From Pseudolabrys taiwanensis (GTDB lineage Bacteria > Pseudomonadota > Alphaproteobacteria > Rhizobiales > Xanthobacteraceae): 64,000 nucleotides of DNA. The stretch lies in assembly GCF_003367395.1 (NCBI RefSeq), contig NZ_CP031417.1:310001-374000 (forward strand), given 5' to 3'. Position numbers and translations under genes: made by a program. The notes under the pieces were generated by a model. It had not been told where the DNA came from. It ran no database searches and saw nothing but the letters and a program-made list of their open reading frames with translations. Positions 6,657 through 25,674 of the stretch are shown here, piece after piece. Positions within the stretch are counted from its first letter, which is position 1, and the number at the start of each line of letters is the position of its first letter.

Positions 6657-6686
6657 TCGCGGGTTGCAGCACCGGGGCGCACGACC

Positions 6687-6827
6687 ATGCCGACGCTGGA
6701 CCGCATCATCGCCATGCTCATGCTCTGGGGCATCCGGGGTGCGCTGGCATGGTTCATCGCTTATGAGTACACGACGACCGTACGCGAAAAGCTCGAAGTC
6801 GTGACGCGCGCCTTGTCGAAAATCTGA
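6687..6827 (+). CDS. 46-residue single-span membrane protein
   Basis: It reads MPTLDRIIAMLMLWGIRGAL followed by AWFIAYEYTTTVREKLEVVTRALSKI: one amphipathic or membrane helix, then a charged helix. It follows the membrane-protein gene at 6126-6656 by 30 bases and stops 24 bases before the end of the convergent flavodoxin-like gene. No clear Shine-Dalgarno is present, so this is a moderate call from coding character and position. Function is unknown. Confidence 0.5.
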   Translation: MPTLDRIIAMLMLWGIRGALAWFIAYEYTTTVREKLEVVTRALSKI

Positions 6828-6851
6828 AATCGGGCACCCGGCTGCGCTCAC

Positions 6852-7925
6852 TCATTTCGGCCGCGGATCCTTGAGGCGCCGGTCCGGCGGCTTCAACTCG
6901 CCATTCCGCAATTGCTTCACCGCCTGAACGACCGCGCGCGCCACGTTGCGCACGTCCTCCTGCGTCGCTGTCTCCTTATCGAGATCCTCGTGGCTGGTGG
7001 CGTAAGGTCTGAGATAGCCGATGTAGCGGTCGACGTTCGAAAGGTGTCCGGCCGCAACGAGGCCGATGTCTTCCAGCCAGTCGCCGAGGATGCGCCTGAG
7101 CGTGTCGGCGCCGGCCGCGTCGCCGTGGACGAACACGCCGAAGGTGCGTCCGGCGAGATGGCGTGGATAGGACCAGCCCGCGAGCTCAAGCTGCTTTGCT
7201 TCCTGCGCGTTCTTACCGTGAGTCGATGTAGGATCGGGATTGCCGCCGTCGGCGCAGACGAGCCGGTCCATCATCAGCTTGAATGCCGACGAAACCTGAT
7301 ACCAGTTGACCGGCGACACGATTATGACGCCATGCGCGGCGACCCACCTCGGATAGATCTCGTTCATCCAGTCATTGTTCTGCTGTAAGCCGTGGTTCGG
7401 ATAGCAGGAGCACGGCCAGTGACAGAGCGGCATTGCCGTCGAGACGCACGACTTGCATGGGTAGATGACGCGGTTGAACTCGGAAGCGAGCACCGAGAGA
7501 TTGAGGATGTCGCATTCAAAGCCCGGCTCGTCGCGGATGATCTCGTCGGCCGTTTCCAGCAGCCGCCAGCTCTTCGACATTTCGCCGGGGCAGGTATGCT
7601 CGCTGCGTGTCGATCCGTTGATCAGCAGGATGCGGGAGGGTCCGGTCGCATCTTCAAAGCGTCGTTGCGCATCCTTGATCGCCGCCTGGGCGTCCAGCCA
7701 CTCGATCGACATGTCGTAATCGGGATCGGCAAAGCCGGGGCCGGCCTTGACGGTTCGCGGCGCCTTGCGGTTGTGGCTGTAGGCGTCCCAGGCGGCGTTG
7801 GCGACTTTCTCCAGCTCGACGGTGAGCGGTTCGAAGGCGGGATCGTAGAAGCGTGACAGATATCTTTTCTTGAACTCCGCCTCGTCGAGCTTGACCGGCG
7901 GCATGCCCTTGCGGACCTCGACCAT
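6852..7925 (-). CDS. Flavodoxin-like NAD(P)H-dependent FMN oxidoreductase with a cysteine cluster
   Basis: 357 residues. The flavodoxin fold begins around residue 97 (SRILLINGSTRSEHTCPGEM, FMN-phosphate loop) and includes the flavin-ring loop SPVNWYQVSSAFKLMMDRL. An N-terminal extension of about 95 residues is absent from simple FMN reductases. Residues 157-174 hold C-x2-C-x7-C-x3-C-x-C, inside the fold, reminiscent of but not identical to iron-sulfur flavoproteins. Redox role with FMN is inferred; substrate unknown. The start codon directly abuts the left copy of the ~90-bp direct repeat, so its leader comes from that repeat. Confidence 0.82.
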   Translation of the reverse strand: MVEVRKGMPPVKLDEAEFKKRYLSRFYDPAFEPLTVELEKVANAAWDAYSHNRKAPRTVKAGPGFADPDYDMSIEWLDAQAAIKDAQRRFEDATGPSRILLINGSTRSEHTCPGEMSKSWRLLETADEIIRDEPGFECDILNLSVLASEFNRVIYPCKSCVSTAMPLCHWPCSCYPNHGLQQNNDWMNEIYPRWVAAHGVIIVSPVNWYQVSSAFKLMMDRLVCADGGNPDPTSTHGKNAQEAKQLELAGWSYPRHLAGRTFGVFVHGDAAGADTLRRILGDWLEDIGLVAAGHLSNVDRYIGYLRPYATSHEDLDKETATQEDVRNVARAVVQAVKQLRNGELKPPDRRLKDPRPK

Positions 7926-8012
7926 GAGCGTCTCCGTGCTGTCGGGTCACCAACGCACGAAGACGCCAAAAGGATAGGGCGCGTGCTATTTTGCCTTGCC
8001 CAATGTCGGCGA
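7926..8012. repeat. Left copy of a ~90-bp imperfect direct repeat, with a relic of the pcaC 3' end
   Basis: Bases 7926-7946 match 23001-23021 at 19 of 21 positions. Bases 7953-7970 match 23030-23047 exactly (acgcacgaagacgccaaa). Bases 7985-7994 match 23064-23073 exactly, with weaker similarity to 8012. On the minus strand, 8000-7986 reads G-K-A-K-stop, the same last four residues and stop as pcaC at 23065. Homology ends at the flavodoxin start codon on one side and near 8012 on the other. Overall identity by hand is about three quarters. Confidence 0.8.
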
Positions 8013-8132
8013 AGCTCCGGCTGCGCAGGGGCCGGTACGACGCCGCCCACTGTCGTCAAAGTGCCATGCGCGCTGGATAAAGTACGAAGAACAAAAGGGA
8101 AATTTGCGGCCGCCGCGCGCAATTGTATCGAG

Positions 8133-8933
8133 ATGGCGTTTATGGATTTGAGCGGAGCGAGCCTCTTTCGACGCTCACGCCGGTGCATTGAGTCTGCGAC
8201 GCGGGCAACGTGCCGTTCGCGGGTGTCGATCGGCATCGCTTGGCGATGGGCTTCGTTCGTTTTGGGTGCCTTTTTATCCGTGGGCGCTGTGAGCGCGGCG
8301 GGGGCCGAGGTCGCGCCATCGTCGTTGATGCGGCAAACGATCGTGTTTGACATTCCACCGCAGCCGGTGGCCCGAGCCCTGCTGAAATTCAGTGCGGCGA
8401 CCGGCGTCGATGTGCTTCTGGATGCGCGTCATGCCGCCACGGACACGAAGTCGTTCGATGTGAGGGGTTCGATGGAGGCGCGCGACGCGCTGGACACGTT
8501 GCTGGTCGGTTCTGGATTCGTCGCACGCGAGTTCGGGCCGGACACTGTCTTGGTGGGGACCGCCGCGGCCGGACGCGAAGGTGCACGGGCCGCGTTCTCG
8601 GGTCGCGAGAAAGTCTATTTTGCGATGGTTCAAGGCAAGATTGAAACAACGCTCTGCGCACATGCGGAGACGGTGCCGGGACGGTACCGGTTGGCCTTGA
8701 CGCTTTGGGTTGGTAGATCGGGCAGGGTGGTGCACTTCAAACGTCTGGACACGACCGGTGAGGCGGTCCGCGACGCGGCCGTGGATGAAGCCATGCGCGC
8801 GATAGCTTTTGATCAGTCGCCGCCGGCCGGCATGCCGCAGCCGCTCACCTTGGTGATGGCGCCACGCGACGAAGGCGCAGGCGATACATGCCGGTCCGCG
8901 GTGCGGACGCAGCGCGACGCGTCGACGCGATAG
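8133..8933 (+). CDS. Exported STN-domain protein with TonB-C-like C-terminal domain
   Basis: 266 residues from ATG 8133 (other in-frame starts at 8142 and 7983). A long signal peptide (hydrophobic core about residues 38-56, likely cleavage near AAGA-EV) points to the periplasm. Residues 68-142 form an STN (secretin/TonB short N-terminus) domain: FDIPPQPVARALLKFSAATG through DALDTLLVGSGF to TVLVG. Residues 160-244 resemble a TonB C-terminal domain: YRLALTLWVGRSGRVVHFKR, AMRAIAF. In FecA-type receptors the STN domain talks to FecR. Here the domain is free, and no barrel follows. The sigma gene starts 10 bases downstream, so they form one operon. A role as signal input is inference. Confidence 0.8.
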   Translation: MAFMDLSGASLFRRSRRCIESATRATCRSRVSIGIAWRWASFVLGAFLSVGAVSAAGAEVAPSSLMRQTIVFDIPPQPVARALLKFSAATGVDVLLDARHAATDTKSFDVRGSMEARDALDTLLVGSGFVAREFGPDTVLVGTAAAGREGARAAFSGREKVYFAMVQGKIETTLCAHAETVPGRYRLALTLWVGRSGRVVHFKRLDTTGEAVRDAAVDEAMRAIAFDQSPPAGMPQPLTLVMAPRDEGAGDTCRSAVRTQRDASTR

Positions 8934-8943
8934 TCGGGGGCAA

Positions 8944-9537
8944 ATGGTGCAAGGTGGCACGGCGCTGCTGAGGCAATGGCTTATCGCGAGCTACGACGAT
9001 CTGCGGCGCCGGCTCTCGCGCCGGCTCGGTTCGGAGGATGTCGCGACGGAGGCGCTGCACGAGGTTTGGCTGCGCCTCGATCAGGCAAGCGTTGTCGGCG
9101 CTGTCGAGCAACCGCAATCGTATCTGTATCGCATGGCGTTGAATGCCTCGGCGGATCGGCGCCGGGCCGACATTCGCTGGCTCAGCCGCAACCAAATCGC
9201 CGCCTTCCTGCGCTCGGAAAGCGATGCCATCGATCCCGAGCATGCTTTCTCGGTCAAATCGGAATTCGTCGCGCTCGAGCGGGCGCTCGCCGAACTGCCA
9301 GCGCGAAGCCGCGCCGTTTTTCTCGCCGCGCTGTACGAGGAGTTATCGTATCGGGAGATCGCCAAACGATTCGGCATGTCCGTGCGCTCGGTCGAACGCG
9401 ATATGAACAAGGCCTTCGATCATTGCACGAAGCGGTTGGGCAAGCACAAAGAAGGACGGCGCGTTGCGGCGCCGGCCGAGCTCCTGGAAGCGAGCCGGTC
9501 CGTGGGGCGTGTCCTGGACGCCGGCGATGACGAGTGA
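8944..9537 (+). CDS. ECF-subfamily RNA polymerase sigma factor (FecI-like)
   Basis: 197 residues. The sigma-2 region covers about residues 8-75 (ATEALHEVWLRLD, YLYRMALNASADRRR). The sigma-4 helix-turn-helix lies at about 110-165 (LPARSRAVFLAALYEELSYR, EIAKRFGMSVRSVERDMNKA). A purine-rich site precedes the ATG. It overlaps the anti-sigma gene by 11 bases, the usual arrangement of a FecI/FecR pair. The expected targets are promoters of the downstream exoprotein and perhaps its own operon; this is inferred from gene order. Confidence 0.92.
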   Translation: MVQGGTALLRQWLIASYDDLRRRLSRRLGSEDVATEALHEVWLRLDQASVVGAVEQPQSYLYRMALNASADRRRADIRWLSRNQIAAFLRSESDAIDPEHAFSVKSEFVALERALAELPARSRAVFLAALYEELSYREIAKRFGMSVRSVERDMNKAFDHCTKRLGKHKEGRRVAAPAELLEASRSVGRVLDAGDDE

Positions 9538-10513
9538 TCCCGATCTGCTGACGGCGAGTTCGGAGCTTCGCGCCGAGGCCCGGCGTTGGTTGGTGCATTT
9601 GCATTCGGGCGAGGTCGTGCAGGCGGACCTCGACGCCGCGCGGCGGTGGCGCGAGCAGAGCGCCGCCCATCGCGCGGCTTTCGCGGAAGCTAATGCGCAA
9701 TGGCAGGCTTTGCGCGCTATGCGGCGAAGCGCGCAGATAGCCGATGTCGACACGGTCGCGGCGAGACATCGTCTGGGCCGGCGCGCTTTGCTGGGCGGCG
9801 CGGCCGCGGCGGCTGCCGGCGCGGCGATATATGTCGGAATCCGTCCGCCTCTCGGATTGTGGCCCTCGTTTTCGGAGTTCACCGCGGATGTTCGGACGGG
9901 CGTCGGGGAGCGGCGCCGGATCGCCTTATCGGACGACGTCACCATCGATCTGAATACCAGAACGAGTTTGGTGATGGATCATGCGCGAAACGAGCAAAGA
10001 CGGATCGAATTGCTCGCCGGGCAGATCGCCGCGACAGTGGGCGTCAACCGCGACGGAGCATCGATGCCGCTGGCGGTCAGCGCCGGTCCCGCGGTTGCTC
10101 GTGCTACGCATGCCGTATTCGACCTGAGTTTCGATGGTGAGGCCGGTCATGTCACCTGTCTCGAGGGTTCGCTGACGCTCCAATGCAACGGCGAGAGCAC
10201 GACGCTTCGTGGCCGTGAGCAGATCGCGTATACAGCGAAGGGACTTGGTGTCGCCGCGGCGAATGATGGTCGGGTGACGTCGGCTTGGCGCGACGGCCGA
10301 TTGTTGTTCGAGAATGCGCCACTATCGGAAGCGATCGAGGAGATCAACCGCTATCGGCGCGGACGGATCATTCTGATGAGCGGCGACGTCGGGCAGCTGC
10401 CGCTGAATGCCGCGTTCCGGCTCGACCGTCTCGATGAGGTCGTGCCGAAGCTCGCGAGCCTGTTTGGCTTGCAAGTGCGGAGGCTGCCCGGCGGCTTCGT
10501 CCTCCTTGGGTGA
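9527..10513 (+). CDS. FecR-family anti-sigma factor / transmembrane sensor
   Basis: 328 residues from ATG 9527, inside the sigma gene end. The cytoplasmic N-terminal sigma-binding domain (about residues 13-65, AEARRWLVHLHSGE, FAEANAQW) matches the DUF4880 type. A single membrane segment lies at residues 86-104 (RALLGGAAAAAAGAAIYVG). The periplasmic FecR domain covers about 115-215 (DVRTGVGERRRIALSDDVTI, LNTRTSL). A C-terminal domain at about 255-327 (LFENAPLSEAIEEINRYRRG) is of the DUF4974 type, which has an STN-like pattern. It should hold the ECF sigma factor at the membrane and release it on a periplasmic cue. Confidence 0.92.
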   Translation: MTSDPDLLTASSELRAEARRWLVHLHSGEVVQADLDAARRWREQSAAHRAAFAEANAQWQALRAMRRSAQIADVDTVAARHRLGRRALLGGAAAAAAGAAIYVGIRPPLGLWPSFSEFTADVRTGVGERRRIALSDDVTIDLNTRTSLVMDHARNEQRRIELLAGQIAATVGVNRDGASMPLAVSAGPAVARATHAVFDLSFDGEAGHVTCLEGSLTLQCNGESTTLRGREQIAYTAKGLGVAAANDGRVTSAWRDGRLLFENAPLSEAIEEINRYRRGRIILMSGDVGQLPLNAAFRLDRLDEVVPKLASLFGLQVRRLPGGFVLLG

Positions 10514-10704
10514 TCGCGGGCTCTCTCGCATGAGCCGGACTGTCACGAAATCTTCATCGAAATCTTTGGCGGCTCACGCCGTCGCACGGTCGTCTGGTGA
10601 ACAGGAAAGCAGCTCCGTCGTCGAAGGCAGGTCGCCATCGACGACGGACTGCGCGCTCAAGCCGAGCAGCCTGTCCGTTCAGAGCCGTGCGAAAAGGTCG
10701 TGTC

Positions 10705-13700
10705 ATGTTCAATTCTCCGTCCGTTGCCTGTGAGTCTTCGTTCTCGCGGCACGAGCCTTGCCGCCTGACCTCGAACGCGGCGGACGGTGCTGGGCACGGC
10801 CAGGAGCATCGCAAGGCTTCCTGTTCCGTTCGCTTGTTCCGTACCGCCTGCCTCGCGAGCGTGAGCGCGGTCGCTTTGCTGCTGGCGGCGCCTCAGGCCT
10901 TTGCGCGACCTTTGGGCGGATATGGCGGCGGGTCGCCGAGCGCTGCGGCGCAGGCGCAACAAGCCGCGCAGCAAGCGGCGCAGAACGGGAGCCTGGCGGC
11001 GAGCAATGCGCTCAAGCGCGCGACGCAGGCGGTGCAAGCGATGCAGGCGACGCAGGCGGCGGCGCGGAACGCGGCGCTGCAGGCGGCCGGCGGCGTGCCC
11101 AACGGCCTGACGGTCGGCGGCCTGCAGGTCGCGCCGGGCGCGACGCCGGGATCGAGCTTGTGGCAGGGCGCGCAACTGCCGACGCAGGCGCAGGCGAATG
11201 GCCGCACGCAGGTTGAGGTGCGGCAGTTCCAGCAGAAGGCCATCCTGACCTGGCAGACCTTCAATGTCGGTAGCGAGACGGATCTGCGTTTCGATCAGCA
11301 GGGCAACCGCAACTGGGTCGCGCTCAACCGCGTGCTCGACACGACGGCGCCGAGCCGCATCCTCGGCACGATCAAGGCGGACGGTTCGGTCTACGTCATC
11401 AACCGCAACGGCATCATCTTCGGCGGCGCCTCGCAGGTGAATGTCGGTTCGCTGATCGCCTCGAGCGCCGACATCGCCGACACGCAGTTCCTCACCAACG
11501 GCATCTATTCGGCGCAGGCCGGCGGCGTCTATCTGCCGAGCTTCACCGGCGCCACCGGCAAGATCACGGTCGAGGCGGGCGCGCAGATATCGACGGCGGC
11601 GCCGGCCTCCGTCACTGCGGGCGGCGGTTTTGTCGCCTTGCTCGGCACGCAGGTCGACAATGCCGGCGCGATCGCGACGCCGAAGGGGCAGGCGATCCTG
11701 GCCGCCGGCGACGACTTCATCCTGCGGCCGGGCTTCGGCACCACGGCCAACGTCACCTCGACGACGCGCGGCAGCGAGATCGCGCCGGTGATCGGCGCCG
11801 GCAGCGCCAGCGGCAATGTCACCAACACCGGTCTGATCTTCGCGCAGCAGGGCGACATCACGCTCGCCGGACGCACCTTGATGCAGGATGGCGTGCTGCT
11901 GTCGACCACCTCGGTCAATACGCGCGGCACCATCCATCTCTTGAACGCGGCATCGGATGCGCAAGGCAGCATCACCTTGGGCGCGTCGAGCCTCACCGAC
12001 ATCCTGCCCGAGCTCGACAGCACCGACACCGCGCTCAACACGCAGCGCGACGCGCTGATCGCCGCCTCGGCCGCCGCCAATCTGGCGCGCGCCGGCAGCG
12101 CCACCGGCGCCTTCGACAATCTCTCGCTGCTCGCCGACCGGCAGGATCAGTCGCGCATTGAGATCGTCAGCGGCGGCGATGTGGTGTTCAAGGGCGGCTC
12201 GCTGACGCAAGCGCAAGGCGGCCAGGTGGCGGTCAGCGCCGGCCGGCGCGTCTTCACCGAGAGCGGCGCCACCATCGACGTGTCCGGCGTGCGCGACGTG
12301 GCGGTCGCCATGGCCGCCAACAACATCCAGGTGAACGTGCAGGGCAACGAGCTGCGCGACTCGCCGGTCAACCGCGACAGCGGCAATCTGCTGAACGCCA
12401 ATGTCTGGATCGACCTGCGCGATCTCATCCTGGTGCCGGCCGGCACCGGCGGCTACGCCTCGGACCGTTACTACACGCCCGGCGGCCTGCTCGAAGTGTC
12501 GGGCTACGTGAACAACACCGCACACACGATCGGCGAATGGTCGGCGCTCGGCGGCACCATCACCTTGGCGGCGCCGGAGGTGATCGCGCAGCAGGGTTCA
12601 GTGTTCGACATCTCCGGCGGATCGGTCGCGTATCAGGGCGGCTACATCCGTACCTCGAACTTCCGCGGCGCCGACGGACGCAGCTACAACGTCGGCGATG
12701 CCTCGGCGAACATGCTGTTCACCGGCATTGCCGGCGGTTGGACGCGCGGCAGCGCGCGGTGGAACGTCAGCGAGACCTGGACCAGCGTCTTCAACAAAGG
12801 CGCGGTCAGCACGCGCTGGGAGGACGCTTATACGGTCGGCCGCGACGCCGGCAGTCTCGTTCTGTCGACGCCGACCGCGATCTTCGAAGGCGATATCCTG
12901 GCCGCCGTGGTCAAAGGCGGCCGGCAGCTCAGCGCGCGGCCGGACGGCGTCGGCGACGGCTACAAGCTGCCGCAGAACGCCGCGCCACTTGCCGGCACAT
13001 TGGCGATCGGCCGTTACGATGCGCGCGGCTTGATCAACGGCACCGCCGCCAAGGTTACGTTCGACGACGTCGTCAGGATCACCGCCGGCATGAACGCGGC
13101 CGACGCGGTGCCGGCCGGGCGCACCGGCACGGTGCTGTTCGATGCGGGCATCGTCAACAAAGCGCAGCTCGGCGGCCTGAACGTCGCCAGCGACGACGCC
13201 ATCGCGGTCAACGCGCCCTTGACCTTGGCGCCCGGCGCGGTGGTGACCTTCACGGCGCCCGACGTCGGCATCAACGCCGATATCACGGCGCATGGCGGCC
13301 GCGTCACGCTCGGCAACATCATGAGCGCGCAACTGGCCGTCAACCTGCCCGTGCAGTATTGGGCGCTGACCGATGGCGCCGGCCATGCGCAGGTCTCGAT
13401 CGGCAATGGCGCGACCGTTGATCTCACCGGTCTGTGGACCAATGCCGCGCAGGATCCGTCCGATCAATCGGGCCTGGCCTTCGTCAACGGCGGCAGGCTG
13501 AAAGTGGCGACCACCGGCGGCATCACCGTCGCATCCGGCACGCTGCTCGATGTGTCGTCGGGCGGCGCCATGCTGACGAGCGGCAAGATCAAGGGCGGTA
13601 AAGGCGGCGATGTCAGCCTGATCGCCAACGACTTCGAGAACCTGCCCGACGGCGGCTTCTACACGACGCCGCGCGACGCCAAACTCATACTTGACGGCCG

Positions 13701-16700
13701 CGTGCAATCCTACGGCTTCAATGGCGGCGGCACGCTGACCTTGAACGCGGGTCAGAAGATCGTGATCGGCGGCGGCGCGCAATCCGGCGATCTGCACCTC
13801 GACACGGCGTTGTTCGCGTCGGGCTTCACGGCCTACGACATCACTGGCATCGGCGGCGTCGCCATCGGCGACGGCACGGCGGTCGCACCGACCGTGCCGG
13901 TCTATCGCGCCGACGATGGCTTGGCGTCGCTGCCGACCGGCAGCCGCATCGCGGCGGATCTCTGGCTGCCGCCGGCCTTCCTCGGTAACCCGATTGCCGC
14001 CACGGTCACGCCGCGCGCCGGCGCGGACCTGACTCTGGTGGCAAGCAACGGCGACTTCACGCTCGGCCAGGGCGCGTCGATCGCGGTCGATCCGGGCCAC
14101 GCCGTCAACATCTACGCCTACGGCCAGACCACGATCGACGGCACGATCACGGCCAAGGGCGGCAACATCCTCGTTGCCGGCGCGCAACTGTTTCGAGGTC
14201 AGTGGCGCCAGCTCGGCGGCAACGGCGCCTTCTCGCTGACGCGCTCGATCTGGATCGGCGACGACGCCGTGCTCGACGTGTCCGGCTATGCCGCGACCGT
14301 CACCGATTTGCGCGGCCGCGTCTCAGGCATGGTGGCCGATGGCGGCTCGATCGCGCTCGGCGGCGCCAACGGCACGGCCAGCGACGCCTTCGTCGTCATC
14401 CGCCCCGGCGCGCTGCTCGATGCCTCGGGCACCGCAGCGACGATCGACATCCTCGACGGCAATGGCGCGACGCCGACCGTCGTCGCCAGCGACGGCGGCT
14501 CGATCGCGCTCAATTCCAACAGCGGCATCTATATCGACGGCACGATGCGCGCCGCCGCCGGCGGCGCCGGGGCCTCGGGTGGCACGCTGAGCATGAACCT
14601 GGTGAGCCGTGTCTATTCGCCGACAACACCCAACGCGCAGGTTCCGGATGGCATTGGCACGGTGCCGGAGGTGCTGCGCAAACTGCGGGACATCACCGTT
14701 ACCCAGCAGCGCGAGGCCAGCGGGCTTTCCGGCAGTGCTCAGGCGGGACAGGCGGATAGTGGTCTGCTGTTCGGCAATGCCGCCATCAGTGCCGAGCAAA
14801 TCGCACAAGGCGGCTTTGCATCGCTGGCGCTGCGCACCTCCGACCTGTTCGTGTTTAAAGGGGACGTCAATCTGGCGCTCGCCCGCAGTATCGCATTCGG
14901 CGGTGGCATCTTCAGCGTTTCAGACGCAACGCCCAACATCAGTGTCGCGCTTGCCGCCCCCTATGTGAGGATTGACGGCTTCACCGAAGATAAAGTGGGC
15001 GCGACACATTATAATCCCGGATTGACCAGTGTGCTCCCGAGCGCGAAGCTAAATAGCAGCACCTTGTCCGTCGCGGCCGATCTGCTCGATATCACCGGTG
15101 GTGTTCGCTTCGGCGCATCCGGCCAGCAAGGCAGCGGCTATGTGCGCTGGGTATCCGACACCGATAATACGCTGGGCGGAGGCGCGTTCGTCGATGCTGG
15201 CGGCTTCGCGCAGGTCAATCTCATGAGCCGCGGTGATATCCGCTTCGGCAACGGCCGTCTCTCGACCGATAGCACGCAGCAACCCGGAGGCTGGCTGAAG
15301 ACCAGCGGTGATCTGACCCTGACGGCGGCGCAGATCTATCCGCTCAGCGGCGCCTCGGTGGCGATCTATGCGGGACTGATTGGAAGCCGGGGAAATGAGA
15401 CCTTCGATCCGGCGCGGCAGAAGACGATCACAATTCGCCGCAGCAGCGGCGACATACCGCAGCAACCGGCATCGGTGTTCGGCAATCTGTCCTTGATCGC
15501 GGCCACGATCGACCAAGGCGGTGTCGTGCGCGCGCCGCTGGGCAGAATTATTTTCAATGGTCTTCCAGACAAATTTACCGAGAAGCCCGACGTAACAACG
15601 GTAATCTTCCGTGCCGGCAGCGTCACCTCCGCGACAGCTAATGGGCTGATCATGCCGTTCGGCGGCACCGCCGATGGCACCAGCTATCAAGGCGCCGACG
15701 GCACCTTGGTCGATCTCGGATCGGCATTGGTGAGTACTGCCAACGGTGCGGTCATCACCACCGGCATTTCCGTGACTGCAGGCACGGTCATCGGGGAGAA
15801 AGGCGCCGTCCTCGATCTGTCCGGTGGCGGTTCATTGACGGGCGCTGGCTTCGTGTCCGGCCGCGGCGGTTCGGTCGACACCCTCAAGACGCCGCTCATC
15901 AACGCCAACCCGGTCAACACATTCAGTTCGGCTGGCAATAAAGTCTACGCGATCATGCCGGGTTATGCGTCGGCCTACGGACCGGCGATCGCCACTAATG
16001 GCGCCGGCGATCCAAATATCGGCCGTCAGATCACGATCCCGGCCGGCGTGCCGGGGCTGCCGGCCGGCAACTACACGTTGCTGCCGTCGAGCTACGCCCT
16101 GCTGCCGGGCGCGTTCCGCGTCGAACTGGGTGGCAGCACCAACCGCGCGATGTCTCCGTTCGCGATGGCGAATGGCAGCTATGTTGCGTCCGGCATCCTG
16201 GGCGTCGCCAATACAGGCATTCGCGACGCGCTGCCCACCGAGCTCATCCTGTCGGCAGGGCAGGTGACACGCAGTTATTCGCAATATAACGAGACCAGCT
16301 ACGCCGACTTCGCGCGCAGCAAAGCCGCGTTGTTCGGCAACGTCCGCCCACGGCTGCCCGATGATGGCAAAATCCTGCAGTTCAACATCGGGGCGTCCAC
16401 CGGGGCGCCATCGTTGTCCTTCGACGGTACCGCGAATTTCGATCCCGCCAATGACGGTATTGCCGGTAGCCTGCTGATTACGTCGTCAGCACCAAGCCAC
16501 ATCATCGATATAACCGCGCCGGGCGTTGCGCCCATCATCGGTCACAGTTCGATTTCGACCGACGATCTCAACGCGTTCCACGCCGCGTCCCTGTTCGTCG
16601 GCGGCGGGCCTCTTTATGTCGCGCCAGGTACGACTTCGGGCGGGGTTGAGATCAGCGGGGTCTCGCTGACGGGCGGCGACTCGGTGGTCAACGTTCTCGA

Positions 16701-19700
16701 TGGCGCCTACCTGCAAGCGAGGCAGGTGTTCCTGATCGGCTCATCGATCAGTGTTGCCGGCGGAGCGGCGATCGACACGCGCGGCCAGAGCAGGGCCGGG
16801 CTCGATTCGAGCCTCGGCTATGTTTTCCGCGGCGCAAACTTCCTTGCAGTCGCCAACGGTCGGCTCAACTTCCTGCCGTCTACCGGCACCGGGAGCATAA
16901 TGATCGCTACTGGTGCATCGCTGCTCACCGATGGCGGCATCGTGATCGGGGCGCCAGGATCGCTCAGCATGGGCGACGTCAATTTCGGCGCCCGCTATCT
17001 TTCCGTTACGCTGAATACGATCAATGCCGGCGACCCGGCGGCGCTCGCCGCGGCGCAGGCGGCAGGCGTGTTGCCAAACGGTTGGACGTTGAACCAAGCC
17101 GCTTTGGACCGGTTGCTACGGCCGTCATCCACCGCGGGCGTGCCAGCGCTCGAGCAGCTCACGCTCACCGTCGGCGGTTCCATCAATCTGTTCGGCAGTG
17201 TGACCCTCGATGCGCGAAGCCAGTCGACGAGCGATGTCGAATTCGTGCTCAACACGCCGGCCATTTATGGCCTTGGGAGCGCGAGCGACACCGCGATGGT
17301 CATCGCGGATCGGCTGTTCTGGAATGGCATCCGCACCGGCTATTTCGATAACACGGGCGCCGGCACGCCACATTATGGCGTCCAACCGCCGGCACCTATC
17401 ACTCCCAATGGCGCGGGGACAGGTGCGGGCAATCTCGTATTGCAGGCGCAGGATGTTACGTTCGGCTATGACAAATACAGCCGTCAGAGCGATGGCGTCA
17501 CGCTGGACCGGATCGCGGTCGGCTTCGCCAATGTCGCGATCAATGCGACCGACCGCATCACAGGCAACAGCGATGGCACGTTGTCGGTCGGTCTCAGCAA
17601 AGACCCATCGGGCAAGCTGATCGGCGGCAATCTCACGCTGTCGTCGCCCTTGATCACCGCGGAGGCCGGGGCCACCATCGATTACACCGCCGGCGGCGCC
17701 ATCCGCGTCGTCACGCCGGCCGGCAGCGTGCCAAGCGAAACGTCCGTCGTTGCCGATCAAGGCGGTACCTTATCGTTCAAGGGCGACAGCGTGTTCGTCG
17801 ATACGGCCTTCGCGCTACCGAGCGGCAAGCTGACGCTGACCGCGACCAACGATATCGTGCTCGGTGGCAACGCCCGGGTCGATCTCGCCGGCCGCGCCAT
17901 CACATTCTACGACATCACCAAATTCGGCTGGGGCGGCGACCTGATGCTGCAGAGCGCTAATGGCAACATCACGCAGGCGGCCGGATCGCTGATCGACGTG
18001 TCGGCGACCTATAACCAGGCCGGGTCGATCGCCGCGGTCGCTGATGACGGCGTGATCGCGCTGGACGGGACTCTGCGCGGCAGCACGGCCGATGATGCGC
18101 AGAGCGGCCGGATCGGCCTGCGCGCCGCGAGCCTGGGAGATTTCACCGCGCTGAACGCGATGCTCAATCAGGCGGGTTTCTTTGGCGGTCGCGCCTTCGT
18201 GCTCAAGCAGGGCGATCTTGTGGTGGGCGCGGGCGTGCGCGCGCATACGGTGTCGATCTCGGTCGATAACGGCAGCTTGACCGTGAACGGCACCATCGAT
18301 GCATCGGGCGCGAAGCCCGGCAGCATCCGTCTCGCGGCGCGAGACGATCTCACGCTGGCTTCAACGGCGAACCTCGATACCCACAGCACCGTGCTGCAGA
18401 CCGACAGCTACGGCGCGCCGATCGAGGCGAATAACACGGCGCATGTGGACCTCACGAGCTCGCAGGGTTGGGTAAATCTTGCACCCGGCGCGAGCATCGA
18501 CATGCGATCGGCGGATGGCATTGCGCGCGGCAAGCTCGAGATCAACGCGCCGCGGCTCGGCTCGGGGAGCAGTGCGACCGGTGCCGGCGCGCCGGACAAT
18601 GCGACCGGCGATGATATCGCGATCTCAGCAGCCGGTCCGCTGAACATCCGCGGCGCCGCCTCGGTCGCGGTCAACGGCTTCGCCACCTACACGAATGCGC
18701 CGGCCGATCCCGACGATGCCAATGGGCAGATCATCGATCAAGCTTGGCTCGATCTGGTCGATGAGGACTCGACCGTCTTTTACAACGCCGCGCTCGGCAA
18801 TACGAACCTCCAAGCTCGGCTTGCCGGCTTGAAGAACATCGCTGGCTCGACCTTCCATCTCCGTCCTGGCGTTACGATCGCGAGCGCAACGCCGAACGGC
18901 AATCTGACGGTCAAAGGCGATCTCGATTTTTCTAATTATCGCTACGGCCTTGGCGCCGACACACAAAACCACACGGGTCTCGGCGAAGTCGGCGTGATCA
19001 ACTTCCGCGCCGGCGGCACGCTGACGGTGAAGGGCAGCATCAATGACGGCTTCGCGCCACCGCCGGTCTCGCCCGATGCTTTGACCACGTTATTCTCCGG
19101 CACGCTGGGGGCAGATTACACGGTCACGACGGGTGGCGTGACGTTGGGGGCGGGCTGGTTGACGGGCATCTTCAACGACTGGGATCCGGCGGTGACGGTT
19201 GGATTCGACATTCCGTTGGGGCCTGGCTTCCTCATTCTGATCGATCCCACGCCCGATCATCCAATTCCGATCGATATCCCGCTAGCGCAGGATCTGATGT
19301 ATGGCGGGTTTGGTGATCCGCTTGGCGGCGATATTCGCGACGCCAATGGGCATATCCTTTATAGGGCGACCGACATCCTTGATTGGGGGACGATCATTCC
19401 GGCCGGCAGTGTGCTCGGCAGGGGCATCAATTCCTCGATCGGCGGCTGGGGTGGAATCTATACATCTCTAACCGCTTGGCCGGCCAATACCGATCTTTAC
19501 ATGATCGGCGGTAACCCGGTCGAAAAGGCAATATCGCTCCCACCCGGCACCGTGCTGCCATTCAATTTTTCGCTCACGGATATAACTCTGACCGGACCTG
19601 GCGATCGCAAGGTCTGGGCAACCTCGGCGATGCAGACGCCGGGCGCGCAGTCCTGGTCGATGCGGCTGGTCGGGGGCGCCGATCTCACCGGTGCCGACAG

Positions 19701-22700
19701 CCGCGCGTTGCAAGCGACAACCAAGCTTGCGAGCGGCACCGGCAATGTTGTGTTGAACGATCCTTTCACCGTCAATCTGCTCGGCACGGGGACATCGAGC
19801 GCCGGGGTCAGCGTGGTGCGCACCGGCACCGGTAATCTGGAAATTCTCGCCGGCGGTAGCTACCGGCAGGATTCGCCCTATGGTGTCTATACGGCAGGCA
19901 CGGCAATCGCCGTGGATAGTGCCTATAACACCGGCCGCGCGCTCGCGCCGGACGGCACTGTGCTTGGCAGCACCGACCATCCGCAAAATGCCGACTATGA
20001 GGCGACGTTGAAAGACGCGGGGGGCAATTATCGGCCGCGGATGTACTACACCGAAAATGGCGGCGACTTCCTGCTGGTGGCGCAAGGCGATATCGGCGGC
20101 AAGCAGAAGATGGTGAATACGTCGCAAAGCGACTCCACGGTGGTTGGCAACTGGCTATGGCGTCAGGGTGGTAACGGGCAAGCCACCGCCTGGGGCATCA
20201 ATTTCGGCAGCTATGTCGGGACCGATATCGGAGGGGGGCCGCAGATCGGTCTTGCTGCCTTCTCCGGCATGGGCGCGCTTGGCGGCGGCAACGTCACGCT
20301 GCAAGCCGGCGGCGATATCGGTAACGCCGGGCAGGGCGTCGTCGTTGCTATTGGCGGCAGCGGCCGGGTCACGGCCGACGGCCAATTGATCCAGACCGGC
20401 GGTGGCACGCTGTCGGTCGTCGCCGGTGGCAATGTTGGTACCGGGGGCAACCAGTTCGTCAATCTGCGTGGCGACACACAAGTCGCGGCCGGCGATTTTG
20501 GCAGTCTCGTCAGCAAAAACTATGGATATAACGGGCAGTTCGATCCACGGCCGCTCGACCCCTTCAAGAATTTCGGAGTCGCGGCTTTTGCGGGGGGCTC
20601 TTTCGCACCGGGCGATGGTGCGATCGCCGTACGCGCGCGCGGCGATCTGGCAATGGGAAGTATCGACGATCCTGGCCGTGTCACTCTCGGTCAGGACACC
20701 GCCGGCGGGGCGAATGGCGTGAAGAGCTCGACGTGGTTCACGCTGTGGACCGGTCGCACCGTAATCGATCTGACCGCCGCCGGCGGTGATGCGTCGCCGC
20801 TGTCGCCAAACCAGTCGGTCGGCATTTTGCCGTCGGTGTTGCGGGTCACAGCCGCAAGCGGTGACATTTTCCTGAACCCGGCACTGGACGGAGTCTCGCT
20901 GATGATGCCGTCGCCGGATGGCGAGCTGCAATTGCTCGCGCAGGGTTCGGTTATCGAGGTCAATTCCACGACTGCGTCGTTTGGCCCGCTATCGACCTCG
21001 CTTGCCAGCATTGCGACACCGTTCAGACCCGCATGGGCATGGCACGCATTGGTCGGCTCCAGCGATACCGTGCAGGAGTCCAATCTCTGGGCGCAGGGAA
21101 ATATGCTGCGCGATCAGCTCGGCGCGACGGAAGCTGGGATAAACGCTCTCGGCCGGCTGTTCGCATTCGGCCCTGACACCACCAGCGATGCGAGTGCAGC
21201 CGGCAACGGCGTCCGCTCGAAGATCTATGCGCTGACTGGCGATATCAGCGGTTTGCGCTACGGCGAGGTCTATCACGACGTCCAGTTCCTCGGTTCAGGC
21301 TATGTCGGCACGGATTATTATCGTGCGGCAAAGCCGATCGATATCATCGCCGGCGGCGACATCTTCAATATTGGCGGCCTCATCCTGCACAGTGAGCCGA
21401 CCGACGTGTCGACCATCGCCGCGGGCGGCAATGTGATCTATGCGGGAACGAATGTGGGTTACTCTGTTGGGGCCACGTCCGTTACGGCGGTCGGCCTGCA
21501 GATCGCCGGCCCCGGCACGCTCGAAGTCACGGCGGGCGGCAACATCTATCAAGGCTCGCTCGCCGGCATAGAAAGCATCGGCGCATTGGTGCAGGGCGAC
21601 AGCCGGCCGGGTGCGAGCGTCGTGCTGCAAGCCGGCGTCGGCCAAGGCACGCCCGGCGTCGGGCAGGTCGATTGGACGGGCTTTGCCAAACTCTATCTCG
21701 ATCCGGCCAATCGCGCCGGCGCGGGACCGCTGGCGGATCAGCCGGGCAAGGTCGCGAAGACCTACGACACTGAACTGGTGACCTGGCTCAAGGATCGCTT
21801 CGGCTATAGCGGCGCGGACGCGGATGCGCTCGCTTACTTCAACGCGCTGCCGGGCGCGCAGCAGCGCGTGTTCCTGCGGCAGGTCTATTACGCCGAGCTC
21901 ACGGCCGGCGGCCGCGAGTATAACGACAAAGCGAGTTCGCGTTTCGGCAGCTATCTGCGCGGCCGTGAAGCCATCGCAGCGCTGTTCCCGGCCGGTAATT
22001 ATGCCGGCGACATCACGATGTTCAGCGCCAAGGCGGCCTACAGCACGACGATCAACAGCGGATTCGTGCACACCGACTTCGGTGGCGACATCCAGTTCCT
22101 CACGCCGGGCGGTAAGGTCGTGGTCGGCACCGAGGGGCTGGCCCCGGGCGCCGACGCAGGCTTGATCACGCAAGGACAGGGCGAGATCCAGGTCTATTCG
22201 AAGGACAGCGTGCTGCTCGGCCTGTCGCGCATCATGACGACGTTCGGCGGCGACATCCTGATCTGGTCGGCGGAAGGCGACATCAACGCCGGCCGCGGCT
22301 CAAAAACAACGGTGCTCTACACGCCGCCGAAGCGGACGTATGACATCTACGGCAATGTCACGCTGTCGCCGGTCGTGCCGTCGAGCGGCGCCGGCATCGC
22401 GACGCTCAATCCGATCCCCGAGGTCAAGGCCGGTAACATCGACCTGATTGCGCCGCTCGGCACGATCGATGCGGGCGAAGCGGGCATCCGCGTCTCGGGC
22501 AACGTCAACCTGGCAGCGCTGCAGGTCGTCAACGCGGCCAACATCCAGGTCCAGGGCACGACGACGGGCGTGCCGGTGGTGCAACTGCCGAACGTCAGCG
22601 GCGCCTTGGCGGCGTCCAACACGGCCGGCGCGGCCCAGCAGACGATGACGCCGGCGGGGAACGGCAACGCGGCGCAGCCCTCCATCATTATCGTCGAGGT

Positions 22701-22881
22701 GCTGGGCTTTGGCGGTGACGATTCCACGCCCGAAAACCACCGCCCCGACACGCGGACCGATGTGCAAGGTCGAGGCCAGGAATCGCGCAGCGCTATTGAG
22801 GTCATCGGTGCCGGCGAACTGACACCGGGCCAGCGTGGGAAGCTGACCGAAACCGAAAGGCGTAATCTCGGTGCGCCTTGA
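10705..22881 (+). CDS. Giant filamentous-haemagglutinin-like secreted exoprotein (about 4,058 residues)
   Basis: The start at ATG 10705 has AAAAGG upstream; an in-frame ATG at 10597 lacks support. An unusually long signal peptide runs to about residue 67 (core SVSAVALLLAAPQAFA). A TPS/haemagglutinin-activity domain follows at about 130-300, with INRNGIIFGG at 232-241 in place of the usual NPNGI. The long middle is repetitive Gly/Asp/Thr/Ala beta-helix sequence. The C-terminal region at about 3560-3975 (GYLRG-like REAIAALFPAGNYAGDITMF, TIDAGEAGIRVSGN) matches the DUF3739 region of this family. The last 85 residues are polar and acidic. I saw no cysteine in the mature part. No TpsB (FhaC/ShlB) gene is in the window. 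It is probably a surface adhesin or matrix protein. Confidence 0.93.
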   Translation: MFNSPSVACESSFSRHEPCRLTSNAADGAGHGQEHRKASCSVRLFRTACLASVSAVALLLAAPQAFARPLGGYGGGSPSAAAQAQQAAQQAAQNGSLAASNALKRATQAVQAMQATQAAARNAALQAAGGVPNGLTVGGLQVAPGATPGSSLWQGAQLPTQAQANGRTQVEVRQFQQKAILTWQTFNVGSETDLRFDQQGNRNWVALNRVLDTTAPSRILGTIKADGSVYVINRNGIIFGGASQVNVGSLIASSADIADTQFLTNGIYSAQAGGVYLPSFTGATGKITVEAGAQISTAAPASVTAGGGFVALLGTQVDNAGAIATPKGQAILAAGDDFILRPGFGTTANVTSTTRGSEIAPVIGAGSASGNVTNTGLIFAQQGDITLAGRTLMQDGVLLSTTSVNTRGTIHLLNAASDAQGSITLGASSLTDILPELDSTDTALNTQRDALIAASAAANLARAGSATGAFDNLSLLADRQDQSRIEIVSGGDVVFKGGSLTQAQGGQVAVSAGRRVFTESGATIDVSGVRDVAVAMAANNIQVNVQGNELRDSPVNRDSGNLLNANVWIDLRDLILVPAGTGGYASDRYYTPGGLLEVSGYVNNTAHTIGEWSALGGTITLAAPEVIAQQGSVFDISGGSVAYQGGYIRTSNFRGADGRSYNVGDASANMLFTGIAGGWTRGSARWNVSETWTSVFNKGAVSTRWEDAYTVGRDAGSLVLSTPTAIFEGDILAAVVKGGRQLSARPDGVGDGYKLPQNAAPLAGTLAIGRYDARGLINGTAAKVTFDDVVRITAGMNAADAVPAGRTGTVLFDAGIVNKAQLGGLNVASDDAIAVNAPLTLAPGAVVTFTAPDVGINADITAHGGRVTLGNIMSAQLAVNLPVQYWALTDGAGHAQVSIGNGATVDLTGLWTNAAQDPSDQSGLAFVNGGRLKVATTGGITVASGTLLDVSSGGAMLTSGKIKGGKGGDVSLIANDFENLPDGGFYTTPRDAKLILDGRVQSYGFNGGGTLTLNAGQKIVIGGGAQSGDLHLDTALFASGFTAYDITGIGGVAIGDGTAVAPTVPVYRADDGLASLPTGSRIAADLWLPPAFLGNPIAATVTPRAGADLTLVASNGDFTLGQGASIAVDPGHAVNIYAYGQTTIDGTITAKGGNILVAGAQLFRGQWRQLGGNGAFSLTRSIWIGDDAVLDVSGYAATVTDLRGRVSGMVADGGSIALGGANGTASDAFVVIRPGALLDASGTAATIDILDGNGATPTVVASDGGSIALNSNSGIYIDGTMRAAAGGAGASGGTLSMNLVSRVYSPTTPNAQVPDGIGTVPEVLRKLRDITVTQQREASGLSGSAQAGQADSGLLFGNAAISAEQIAQGGFASLALRTSDLFVFKGDVNLALARSIAFGGGIFSVSDATPNISVALAAPYVRIDGFTEDKVGATHYNPGLTSVLPSAKLNSSTLSVAADLLDITGGVRFGASGQQGSGYVRWVSDTDNTLGGGAFVDAGGFAQVNLMSRGDIRFGNGRLSTDSTQQPGGWLKTSGDLTLTAAQIYPLSGASVAIYAGLIGSRGNETFDPARQKTITIRRSSGDIPQQPASVFGNLSLIAATIDQGGVVRAPLGRIIFNGLPDKFTEKPDVTTVIFRAGSVTSATANGLIMPFGGTADGTSYQGADGTLVDLGSALVSTANGAVITTGISVTAGTVIGEKGAVLDLSGGGSLTGAGFVSGRGGSVDTLKTPLINANPVNTFSSAGNKVYAIMPGYASAYGPAIATNGAGDPNIGRQITIPAGVPGLPAGNYTLLPSSYALLPGAFRVELGGSTNRAMSPFAMANGSYVASGILGVANTGIRDALPTELILSAGQVTRSYSQYNETSYADFARSKAALFGNVRPRLPDDGKILQFNIGASTGAPSLSFDGTANFDPANDGIAGSLLITSSAPSHIIDITAPGVAPIIGHSSISTDDLNAFHAASLFVGGGPLYVAPGTTSGGVEISGVSLTGGDSVVNVLDGAYLQARQVFLIGSSISVAGGAAIDTRGQSRAGLDSSLGYVFRGANFLAVANGRLNFLPSTGTGSIMIATGASLLTDGGIVIGAPGSLSMGDVNFGARYLSVTLNTINAGDPAALAAAQAAGVLPNGWTLNQAALDRLLRPSSTAGVPALEQLTLTVGGSINLFGSVTLDARSQSTSDVEFVLNTPAIYGLGSASDTAMVIADRLFWNGIRTGYFDNTGAGTPHYGVQPPAPITPNGAGTGAGNLVLQAQDVTFGYDKYSRQSDGVTLDRIAVGFANVAINATDRITGNSDGTLSVGLSKDPSGKLIGGNLTLSSPLITAEAGATIDYTAGGAIRVVTPAGSVPSETSVVADQGGTLSFKGDSVFVDTAFALPSGKLTLTATNDIVLGGNARVDLAGRAITFYDITKFGWGGDLMLQSANGNITQAAGSLIDVSATYNQAGSIAAVADDGVIALDGTLRGSTADDAQSGRIGLRAASLGDFTALNAMLNQAGFFGGRAFVLKQGDLVVGAGVRAHTVSISVDNGSLTVNGTIDASGAKPGSIRLAARDDLTLASTANLDTHSTVLQTDSYGAPIEANNTAHVDLTSSQGWVNLAPGASIDMRSADGIARGKLEINAPRLGSGSSATGAGAPDNATGDDIAISAAGPLNIRGAASVAVNGFATYTNAPADPDDANGQIIDQAWLDLVDEDSTVFYNAALGNTNLQARLAGLKNIAGSTFHLRPGVTIASATPNGNLTVKGDLDFSNYRYGLGADTQNHTGLGEVGVINFRAGGTLTVKGSINDGFAPPPVSPDALTTLFSGTLGADYTVTTGGVTLGAGWLTGIFNDWDPAVTVGFDIPLGPGFLILIDPTPDHPIPIDIPLAQDLMYGGFGDPLGGDIRDANGHILYRATDILDWGTIIPAGSVLGRGINSSIGGWGGIYTSLTAWPANTDLYMIGGNPVEKAISLPPGTVLPFNFSLTDITLTGPGDRKVWATSAMQTPGAQSWSMRLVGGADLTGADSRALQATTKLASGTGNVVLNDPFTVNLLGTGTSSAGVSVVRTGTGNLEILAGGSYRQDSPYGVYTAGTAIAVDSAYNTGRALAPDGTVLGSTDHPQNADYEATLKDAGGNYRPRMYYTENGGDFLLVAQGDIGGKQKMVNTSQSDSTVVGNWLWRQGGNGQATAWGINFGSYVGTDIGGGPQIGLAAFSGMGALGGGNVTLQAGGDIGNAGQGVVVAIGGSGRVTADGQLIQTGGGTLSVVAGGNVGTGGNQFVNLRGDTQVAAGDFGSLVSKNYGYNGQFDPRPLDPFKNFGVAAFAGGSFAPGDGAIAVRARGDLAMGSIDDPGRVTLGQDTAGGANGVKSSTWFTLWTGRTVIDLTAAGGDASPLSPNQSVGILPSVLRVTAASGDIFLNPALDGVSLMMPSPDGELQLLAQGSVIEVNSTTASFGPLSTSLASIATPFRPAWAWHALVGSSDTVQESNLWAQGNMLRDQLGATEAGINALGRLFAFGPDTTSDASAAGNGVRSKIYALTGDISGLRYGEVYHDVQFLGSGYVGTDYYRAAKPIDIIAGGDIFNIGGLILHSEPTDVSTIAAGGNVIYAGTNVGYSVGATSVTAVGLQIAGPGTLEVTAGGNIYQGSLAGIESIGALVQGDSRPGASVVLQAGVGQGTPGVGQVDWTGFAKLYLDPANRAGAGPLADQPGKVAKTYDTELVTWLKDRFGYSGADADALAYFNALPGAQQRVFLRQVYYAELTAGGREYNDKASSRFGSYLRGREAIAALFPAGNYAGDITMFSAKAAYSTTINSGFVHTDFGGDIQFLTPGGKVVVGTEGLAPGADAGLITQGQGEIQVYSKDSVLLGLSRIMTTFGGDILIWSAEGDINAGRGSKTTVLYTPPKRTYDIYGNVTLSPVVPSSGAGIATLNPIPEVKAGNIDLIAPLGTIDAGEAGIRVSGNVNLAALQVVNAANIQVQGTTTGVPVVQLPNVSGALAASNTAGAAQQTMTPAGNGNAAQPSIIIVEVLGFGGDDSTPENHRPDTRTDVQGRGQESRSAIEVIGAGELTPGQRGKLTETERRNLGAP

Positions 22882-22887
22882 CGGGGC

Positions 22888-22905
22888 GATGGGCGGCCAT
22901 CTTTT
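22888..22905 (+). terminator. Weak hairpin-T terminator after the exoprotein gene
   Basis: Stem 22888-22892 pairs with 22897-22901 (5 bp) around a 4-base loop, followed by four T residues, seven bases after the stop codon. The stem is short, so this is tentative. Confidence 0.35.
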
Positions 22906-23000
22906 GCCTCCCGTCGTCGCGCCGCCTTCGGCGTGCACCGTACTCGTAAGGGACCGATCTCTTAAGGACCTGTGACGGCGCTCGTCGTATGCCGCCAACG

Positions 23001-23090
23001 GAGCGTCTCCGTTATGTCGGGGTTAACCGACGCACGAAGACGCCAAATGAGCGAGGGAGCCGCGCTATTTTGCTTTCCCGACCTCGGCGA
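23001..23090. repeat. Right copy of the ~90-bp direct repeat, overlapping the pcaC 3' end
   Basis: This copy aligns to 7926-8012 in the same orientation, about 15,075-15,079 bases apart with small indels. Its right third is the coding 3' end of pcaC (minus strand) including the stop at 23065-23067. Its left end sits in a perfect 7-bp hairpin (22997-23003 with 23007-23013), half of which is lost in the left copy. The intact coding function here suggests this is the original and the left copy the duplicate. Confidence 0.8.
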
Positions 23091-23454
23091 TGATCTCGGC
23101 GGCTTCCTTGAAGGCGTGGTTCGCCGCCGGTACGCCGCAATAGATCGCCTGCTGCAGGATGATCTCCTTGATGTCGTCCGGCGTGAAGCCGCCTTCGGTC
23201 AAGGCCGCGCGCACATGCATGCGGAATTCGTCCCACTTGTCGATGGCGAGCATGGTGCCGATGACGAGAATGCGGCGCGTGCGTTCGTCGTAATGCGGCC
23301 GCGTCCACACTTCGCCCCAGGCGGCGCGGGTTATGAAGTCTTGGAACTCCTCGGAGAAGGCCGTCTTCTTGGCGTTGGCGCGGTCGACCCAGGCATTGCC
23401 AAGCACCTTGCGCCGCTGCGCCATGCCCTTTTCGTAGCGTTCGCGTTCGTCCAT
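23065..23454 (-). CDS. pcaC: 4-carboxymuconolactone decarboxylase
   Basis: 129 residues, normal length for PcaC. It converts 4-carboxymuconolactone to 3-oxoadipate enol-lactone in the protocatechuate branch of the beta-ketoadipate pathway. Typical segments are ERYEKGMAQRRKVLGNAWVD at the N-terminus, FQDFITRAAWGEVWTRP, and EIILQQAIYCGVPAANHAF near the catalytic end. It follows pcaD by 12 bases on the same strand. Its last codons are part of the right direct-repeat copy. The other pca genes (pcaHG, pcaB, pcaIJF) are not in the window. Confidence 0.95.
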   Translation of the reverse strand: MDERERYEKGMAQRRKVLGNAWVDRANAKKTAFSEEFQDFITRAAWGEVWTRPHYDERTRRILVIGTMLAIDKWDEFRMHVRAALTEGGFTPDDIKEIILQQAIYCGVPAANHAFKEAAEIIAEVGKAK

Positions 23455-23466
23455 GGGAAAGCTCCT

Positions 23467-24249
23467 TCAGCCAAGCAGAAATTCGAGCGTCGCTTTGGCG
23501 AAGGCCTGCGGTTGCTCGACGTTCGAAATGTGGGCGGCGTCGAGCGCGACGAGCTTGGCGCCTGAGATGGCTTTCGCAATCGCCTCGCCGGCGGCGGGCG
23601 GCGTCGCCGGATCCTGCGTGCCGACGATGACCAAGGTGGGTGCCTTGATGGTCGGATTGCTGTCGCGGAAGTCGATGTCGCGGACGGCGGCGACGCTGGC
23701 CATATAGCCTTCGTGGTCGGTGGCGACGAACATCTTGGTCATCCATTCGATCTTCTGTGGCGCGCGTTCGCGGAAGCCCTTGGTGAACCAGCGCTCCATA
23801 TTAGCGGCGACCATCTCGCTCAATTGATGGTCTTTGAGAAAGCGGAGACGATCGTTCCACGGCGCCTTGTCGGCATAATGGAAATGGGTGTTGGCCAGCA
23901 CCAGCTTCTCGATGCGGTCCGGAGCATGGGCGCCCAGCCATTGGCCGTCCATGCCGCCCATCGACAGGCCGCACCAGTTCGTCTTCTCCACCCCCAGCGC
24001 GTCAAGGACGGCGAGGATATCGCGGCCGAATAGCTCGGAGCTGTAGGGCCCTGTCGTCGTGCCGGACTGGCCGTGGCCGCGGCGGTCGTAACGGATGAGC
24101 CGGAAGTGTTTGGCAAATTCGGCGGCCTGGTCGTCCCACATGTGGAGGTCGGTGCCGAGGGAGTTCGACAGCATCAGCGGCGGCGCGTCGTCGCGGCCTT
24201 CCACCTGCACGAAAAGGCGGCAGCCATCGTCGGTCGTAACAATCGGCAT
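23467..24249 (-). CDS. pcaD: 3-oxoadipate enol-lactonase
   Basis: 260-residue alpha/beta hydrolase that opens 3-oxoadipate enol-lactone to 3-oxoadipate. The nucleophile elbow GLSMGG has Ser96. The oxyanion region is SNSLGTDLHMWDDQ, the acid lies in VIVGTQDPATPP, and the catalytic His is in LDAAHISNVEQP near the C-terminus. pcaD-pcaC form a compact operon. The upstream gap of about 160 bases to the divergent coxG-like gene must hold both promoters. Confidence 0.95.
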   Translation of the reverse strand: MPIVTTDDGCRLFVQVEGRDDAPPLMLSNSLGTDLHMWDDQAAEFAKHFRLIRYDRRGHGQSGTTTGPYSSELFGRDILAVLDALGVEKTNWCGLSMGGMDGQWLGAHAPDRIEKLVLANTHFHYADKAPWNDRLRFLKDHQLSEMVAANMERWFTKGFRERAPQKIEWMTKMFVATDHEGYMASVAAVRDIDFRDSNPTIKAPTLVIVGTQDPATPPAAGEAIAKAISGAKLVALDAAHISNVEQPQAFAKATLEFLLG

Positions 24250-25638: not shown

Positions 25639-25674
25639 AGCCGACTAAAAAACTCAAAGGGAAGGAAGACCGCC

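Follow-up and report, generated by a model that had tools for sequence, protein, structure and literature searches.

A 15-kb signalling and exoprotein cassette, probably acquired horizontally, is bracketed by a long duplication of its target between pcaC and a flavodoxin gene of Pseudolabrys taiwanensis

How did a four-gene block of about 15 kb come to lie between pcaC and a flavodoxin gene that stand side by side in relatives, and what left the repeats that bracket it? The locus lies in a 64,000-nucleotide stretch of the Pseudolabrys taiwanensis genome (NZ_CP031417.1, positions 310,001 to 374,000; hereafter the window, with coordinates counted from its first base), where a cassette encoding a cell-surface-signalling system and a giant exoprotein is flanked by direct copies of a sequence of about 90 bp. 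A preliminary description, made from the sequence alone, held that the cassette had entered at the pcaC 3' end and duplicated about 90 bp, and our analysis supports this entry with the refinement that the copy also covers the whole intergenic region up to the flavodoxin start. On balance, we consider it rather probable that the block was horizontally acquired, was inserted with target duplication after the split from the sister genome by a route independent of an integrase, and works as a Vre-type switch.

The two copies are unambiguous. The left copy (7926..8012, minus strand) carries a relic of the pcaC 3' end, reading G-K-A-K-stop although no pcaC is present there, followed by intergenic sequence that ends directly before the ATG of the flavodoxin gene, and the right copy (23001..23090, minus strand) contains the true pcaC 3' end and stop codon followed by intergenic sequence, including a stretch resembling the flavodoxin ribosome-binding site, without a flavodoxin gene. 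These readings of the two ends agree with the preliminary description, as do its three blocks of identity (19/21, 18/18 and 10/10 positions, in the same order and orientation). The pairwise alignment that it had proposed, run end to end, paired the direct copies with 73 matches, 13 mismatches and 1 + 4 unpaired bases, and their local score of 89 compares with a maximum of 36 among 1974 random pairs of window segments (2000 were drawn and 26 close pairs skipped). A search of the 87-bp copy against its own genome (5,593,641 bases, one contig) returned the copy itself at 158 bits and its partner at 70.7 bits (80% identity), the remainder being eight matches of 14-23 bases with E above 2; the genome thus holds no third copy of the roughly 90-bp sequence, indicating that it is not a dispersed repeat. 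On the flavodoxin side the homology has a sharp edge at the start codon, past which an extension as good or better is found in 250 of 500 random pairs, and on the pcaC side there may be a weak further extension, equalled or bettered by 33 of 500 random pairs. Because the duplication runs from the last codons of pcaC through all of the intergenic sequence to the start codon of the flavodoxin gene, both neighbouring genes retain their ends. The whole window yielded no Rfam match at the gathering score and no tRNA, the fold of 22890-23067 was no better than that of shuffled sequence (z -0.96, with 29 of 200 shuffles equally good), and promoter and terminator matches near the repeats were confined to one weak terminator-like site past the exoprotein gene. 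Identity between the copies is about 80-85% and their longest shared identical run is 18 bases. Efficient RecA recombination usually needs a longer identical run than this, so clean excision is now unlikely, and the earlier suggestion that the copies could readily recombine and release the cassette is not borne out.

Relatives preserve the site in its uninterrupted form. A close flavodoxin homologue (E <= 1e-60) was present in three of the 60 genomes searched, namely P. taiwanensis itself, the closest of the relatives with an empty site (a Pseudolabrys metagenome-assembled genome, or MAG, designated G022) and a further genome, G024. Both of the latter have pcaC directly upstream of the flavodoxin gene on the same strand, with a gap of 69 bp in G022 and about 74 bp, counted by eye, in G024. 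Of 582 named loci with a flavodoxin relative, the best 80 were taken, some with only short flanks; in two of these pcaC lies immediately upstream in the same orientation, one being the record of G022 and the other a Xanthobacteraceae MAG (L086) with about 0.2 kb between the genes; a Variovorax locus (L119) has a pcaC relative near its flavodoxin relative, but on the opposite strand. Three distinct genomes therefore carry the uninterrupted pcaC-flavodoxin arrangement without the cassette, which supports the ancestral order pcaD-pcaC-flavodoxin that had been proposed. The window segments 2-4500, 6037-7941 and 23066-28960 are collinear with G022, where the cassette is missing between the last two, and the single 69-bp intergenic region of G022 is homologous to both window copies. 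The search for an empty site with one copy, suggested earlier, was thus successful, and G022, which lacks the cassette, has one copy, not the two that would have spoken against insertion.

The polarity of the event follows from the intergenic sequence. When this region alone was aligned, the right and left copies scored 58 against each other and -1 and 4 against G022, and the best of 500 shuffles scored -12 and -14. Both copies are thus homologous to the single G022 region, and each resembles the other more than it resembles that region, so the duplication is younger than the split from G022. Of 86 aligned sites, 13 differ between the copies (Jukes-Cantor 0.169), and four-fold sites compared with G022 differ at 12 of 54 positions in pcaC and 56 of 152 in the flavodoxin gene, together 68 of 206 (0.435); a simple clock applied to these few sites gives the rough estimate that insertion occurred at about 0.39 of the split from G022. 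At that age, drift would be expected to have created about 23 stop codons in the 12.3-kb exoprotein frame (0.084 x 12282 x 0.0219), an expectation valid only if the copies diverged in place, and none was observed. This difference suggests that the cassette has probably been under selection, if the age estimate holds.

The gene content may point to an origin outside the lineage. DUF3739, the hallmark domain of the exoprotein, was found in only one of 43 genomes of the genus, that of P. taiwanensis; its absence from the other 42 indicates that the cassette was probably acquired, and probably horizontally, and other genomes within the order carry the same four-gene block.

Machinery that might have carried the insertion is sparse at the locus. 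The genome has 11 Phage_integrase (PF00589) matches, all of them outside the window (310001-374000), in a search that covered tyrosine integrases and not serine recombinases or transposases, so that the earlier statement that no integrase is present holds in this form; the nearest match is at 573.9 kb, and the window ends at 374.0 kb. None of 25 of the 26 inverted-repeat pairs listed, with arms of at least 20 bases, joins the ends of the cassette. The host genome does encode end-joining functions, with Ku at two loci and LigD (LigD_N) beside one of them. Of the possible mechanisms, we favour capture without an integrase. The Pseudolabrys lineage would have acquired a four-gene signalling and exoprotein block of about 15 kb horizontally, and the block would have entered between pcaC and the flavodoxin gene after the split from G022 while duplicating about 90-130 bp of target comprising the full intergenic region together with the end of pcaC. 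A pair of nicks or resected ends with about 100 bp between them may have been filled in, with Ku/LigD end joining then attaching them to a linear piece of foreign DNA; alternatively, a repair fork may have switched into foreign DNA and come back at a position about 100 bp behind the one at which it had left. Either a staggered break that is filled in and joined or a template switch would produce a duplicated target of arbitrary length without a dedicated enzyme, as seen here. On one side pcaC would thereby have retained its 3' end, and on the other the flavodoxin gene would have retained its ribosome-binding region, after which both copies would have drifted while the cassette was kept intact. 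Selection can explain why the duplicated stretch takes in both the end of pcaC and the start region of the flavodoxin gene, since presumably only then would both genes survive. The more specific proposal, that the locus is a fossil of the integrase-free capture of a whole 15-kb operon by end joining or template switching with a staggered-end duplication of about 100 bp sparing both genes, is put forward only tentatively.

Steps of this kind have been discussed in other settings. Vaughn and Bennetzen, in 2014, are said to have attributed rice insertions with tandem duplication to asymmetrical nicks, and work by Dupuy et al. from 2019 reportedly concerns nonhomologous end joining and the acquisition of heterologous DNA in bacteria. 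Rice insertions of 10-1000 bp with tandem duplication are attributed to asymmetrical nicks and end joining (PMC7407515). They share with the window locus a target duplication for which no transposase is invoked, and P. taiwanensis likewise has end-joining genes.

Flanking repeats were also sought around similar blocks elsewhere. The sigma-factor search scored at most 8 candidates per genome, and of the ten four-gene clusters at 16 sigma matches outside the P. taiwanensis genome, nine were tested for flanking repeats, a second cluster in G352 being left out. One cassette, on contig C124 of genome G213, scored 210; another on contig C105 of the same genome (at 47 kb) scored 53, one in G132 (at 1775 kb) scored 39, and the other six scored 24-34. 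For comparison, 70 of 72 mismatched control pairs scored no more than 37, the other two (788 and 979) presumably coming from neighbouring or overlapping stretches. The G132 score just exceeds the best ordinary control, and the G213 C105 cassette adjoins a tandem second cassette. On G213 C124, direct 150-bp repeats containing the 3' half of tRNA-Lys(CTT) bracket a 15.8-kb stretch that holds a cassette like that of the window, suggesting that such cassettes probably ride integrase-type islands elsewhere. The tRNA was identified from the corresponding 50 bases of G077 and G394, where ARAGORN made the call; at the three repeat copies of G213 C124 it called no whole tRNA. Those three direct repeats lie in one contig (2034-2179 and 17865-18014 of locus L157, plus contig positions 37722-37767) and are possibly a tandem island array. 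G213 C105 itself carries two sensor-ECF-FecR-exoprotein cassettes head to tail at about 47-77 kb, with a third sensor-sigma-FecR set upstream.

These findings bear on the view that the window cassette is the remnant of a genomic island integrated by a tyrosine recombinase, with the pcaC 3' end serving as attB, the flanking repeats being attL and attR and the integrase gene having since been lost. Duplication of a gene's 3' end is what many island sites show, and the tRNA-associated repeats of G213 fit such a history; we give it some weight but regard it as unlikely here, because the window contains neither a PF00589 match nor a tRNA, the nearest integrase match lies well beyond the window end, and the homology spans the entire intergenic region to the flavodoxin start codon, beyond what an att core in a gene end would need. 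Nor was a similar segment seen by eye behind pcaC at 10 other loci of the genus in readable orientation; together with G022 and G024, these made up the 12 in the pcaC direction among 23 sequences obtained from 30 loci, and the remaining 11 were set aside. SGI1, reported as a genomic island at the trmE 3' end (PMC8409611), offers a similar comparison: SGI1-type islands share with the window cassette an insertion at a gene 3' end and a cargo of cassette size, but the window locus differs in having no tyrosine integrase, a duplication that reaches the start codon of the next gene and strongly diverged copies.

Integration by the Campbell route, in which a circle excised from a sister strain and carrying the roughly 100-bp pcaC-flavodoxin region recombined once at the homologous site, would yield direct repeats of exactly this region and would account for the 15% divergence of the copies as a difference between donor and recipient. 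Such a donor must already have carried the cassette at this place, so the first insertion is merely moved elsewhere, and none was seen among the 43 genomes of the genus, which makes this route quite improbable. An ancestral cassette lost from G022, G024 and L086 has in its favour that loss between direct repeats leaves one copy, as in G022, yet it requires several losses, DUF3739 was not found in the other 42 genomes, and the single copy of G022 is less similar to either window copy than these are to one another; we give it very little weight. Chance similarity or a dispersed repeat instead of a duplication, for which we found nothing in favour, is ruled out for practical purposes by the score of 89 against at most 36 in the 1974 random pairs, by the genome search and by the homology with G022.

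Several observations nevertheless weigh against horizontal, integrase-free capture as preferred above. The overall G+C of the cassette is close to that of its flanks; third-position G+C is 0.73-0.76 in the three small cassette genes, lower than the 0.81-0.86 of six flanking genes, and 0.80 in the exoprotein gene, three reading frames at 28-32 kb (0.63-0.80) having been set aside because they resemble wrong-frame readings. Of the 43 genus genomes, only 28 reach 90% completeness or more with no more than 5% contamination, so that the absence of DUF3739 is not certain in each. The G024 intergenic region scores -20 and -25 against the copies, no better than shuffled sequence scores against G022, and is not recognisably homologous, leaving G022 as the single-copy comparison. 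A duplicated protein-gene target was found in none of the nine other cassettes tested, and the rice insertions, in the account cited, are eukaryotic and far shorter than the 15-kb foreign operon here. An end-joining or template-switch step leaves no specific trace at the locus, and a long-lost integrase or a circular intermediate may still have been the route. Finally, the end of the duplication almost exactly at the flavodoxin start codon could be due to selection or to coincidence, and is unexplained by random breakage alone.

The four genes of the cassette occupy nearly all of its 15 kb and are all encoded on the plus strand, with flavodoxin, pcaC and pcaD on the minus strand, as had been described. 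The first (8142..8933, with an alternative in-frame start at 8133) encodes a VreA-like periplasmic sensor with an STN signalling domain and, in a predicted model, a TolA/TonB-like C-terminal domain; it is followed by an extracytoplasmic function (ECF) sigma factor (8944..9537; Sigma70_r4_2, Sigma70_ECF), a FecR-type anti-sigma regulator (9527..10513, start codon read by eye; FecR and DUF4880) and a two-partner-secretion exoprotein of 4094 aa (10597..22881) with a TPS domain near its N terminus and DUF3739 near its C terminus, for which an ATG at 10705 is likewise in frame and the start is uncertain. On the left of the insertion lies the flavodoxin gene, of the flavodoxin / NADPH-dependent FMN reductase family (6852..7925, minus; PF03358), and on its right a pcaC-like gene of the carboxymuconolactone decarboxylase family (23065..23454, minus; PF02627) followed by a pcaD-like alpha/beta hydrolase gene (23467..24249, minus).

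The closest described counterpart is the PUMA3 (VreA-VreI-VreR) system of Pseudomonas aeruginosa, in which a barrel-less sensor with an STN and a TolA/TonB-like C-terminal domain adjoins an ECF sigma factor and a sigma regulator, and the sigma factor raises the expression of genes including a putative two-partner secretion pair (PMC2729926). Within that description, the barrel-less sensor (from the predicted model here) and the adjacent ECF sigma and FecR-like anti-sigma genes are common to both systems, but the window cassette differs in its giant DUF3739-type exoprotein directly downstream and in lacking TpsB and type II secretion genes. By this analogy, the cassette most likely works as a PUMA3/Vre-type switch, in which the periplasmic STN-TolA-like sensor would act on FecR, thereby freeing the ECF sigma factor for expression of the exoprotein. 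No TpsB is encoded in the cassette, and two ShlB-type genes are present elsewhere in the genome. Region 1938000-1957900 of the contig holds, at about 8760-17900 within it, a further group of sensor, ECF and FecR genes with a ShlB-type transporter and a MotA/ExbB-DUF2341-Laminin_G protein downstream. Elsewhere, a 2587-aa reading frame (59-9516 within 445000-463000 of the contig) without a Pfam match at E 0.001 directly precedes a ShlB-type transporter gene and is possibly another two-partner exoprotein.

The cassette is of a kind already known and is one more case of it, adding an instance of a giant secreted protein that travels with its own Vre-type switch, and the insertion is itself fairly ordinary and well documented. 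When bacteria gain genes, the point of entry is often left without a visible scar, or with one suggestive of an integrase; what is special here is that the record includes a legible empty site, scar and intact cargo, that the target duplication is unusually long, and that the event can be dated from the scar relative to a known split. If capture did occur without an integrase, the same signature could be sought in genomes with Ku and LigD, and the duplication of about 100 bp would amount to a built-in safeguard by which foreign DNA enters an operon without breaking either gene; were this general, long and diverged duplications of this type could be searched for as a sign that Ku-bearing bacteria had gained genes without an integrase.

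Three further observations came from the comparison of the window with G022. An MFS transporter gene (4505-5920) with its flank (4501-6036) is absent from the otherwise collinear G022, where the adjoining matches abut; it has no flanking repeat (score 19) and is therefore not a second case of insertion with duplication. Beside pcaD, a coxG-like gene (24408-24857) is unmatched in G022 (24233-24955) and matched in G024 and L086, and was gained or lost near the pcaC-flavodoxin junction. Finally, a 43-bp stretch at 54554-54596, which contains a short GC-rich palindrome, matches a non-collinear site of G022 at 93% identity and is probably a dispersed intergenic repeat.
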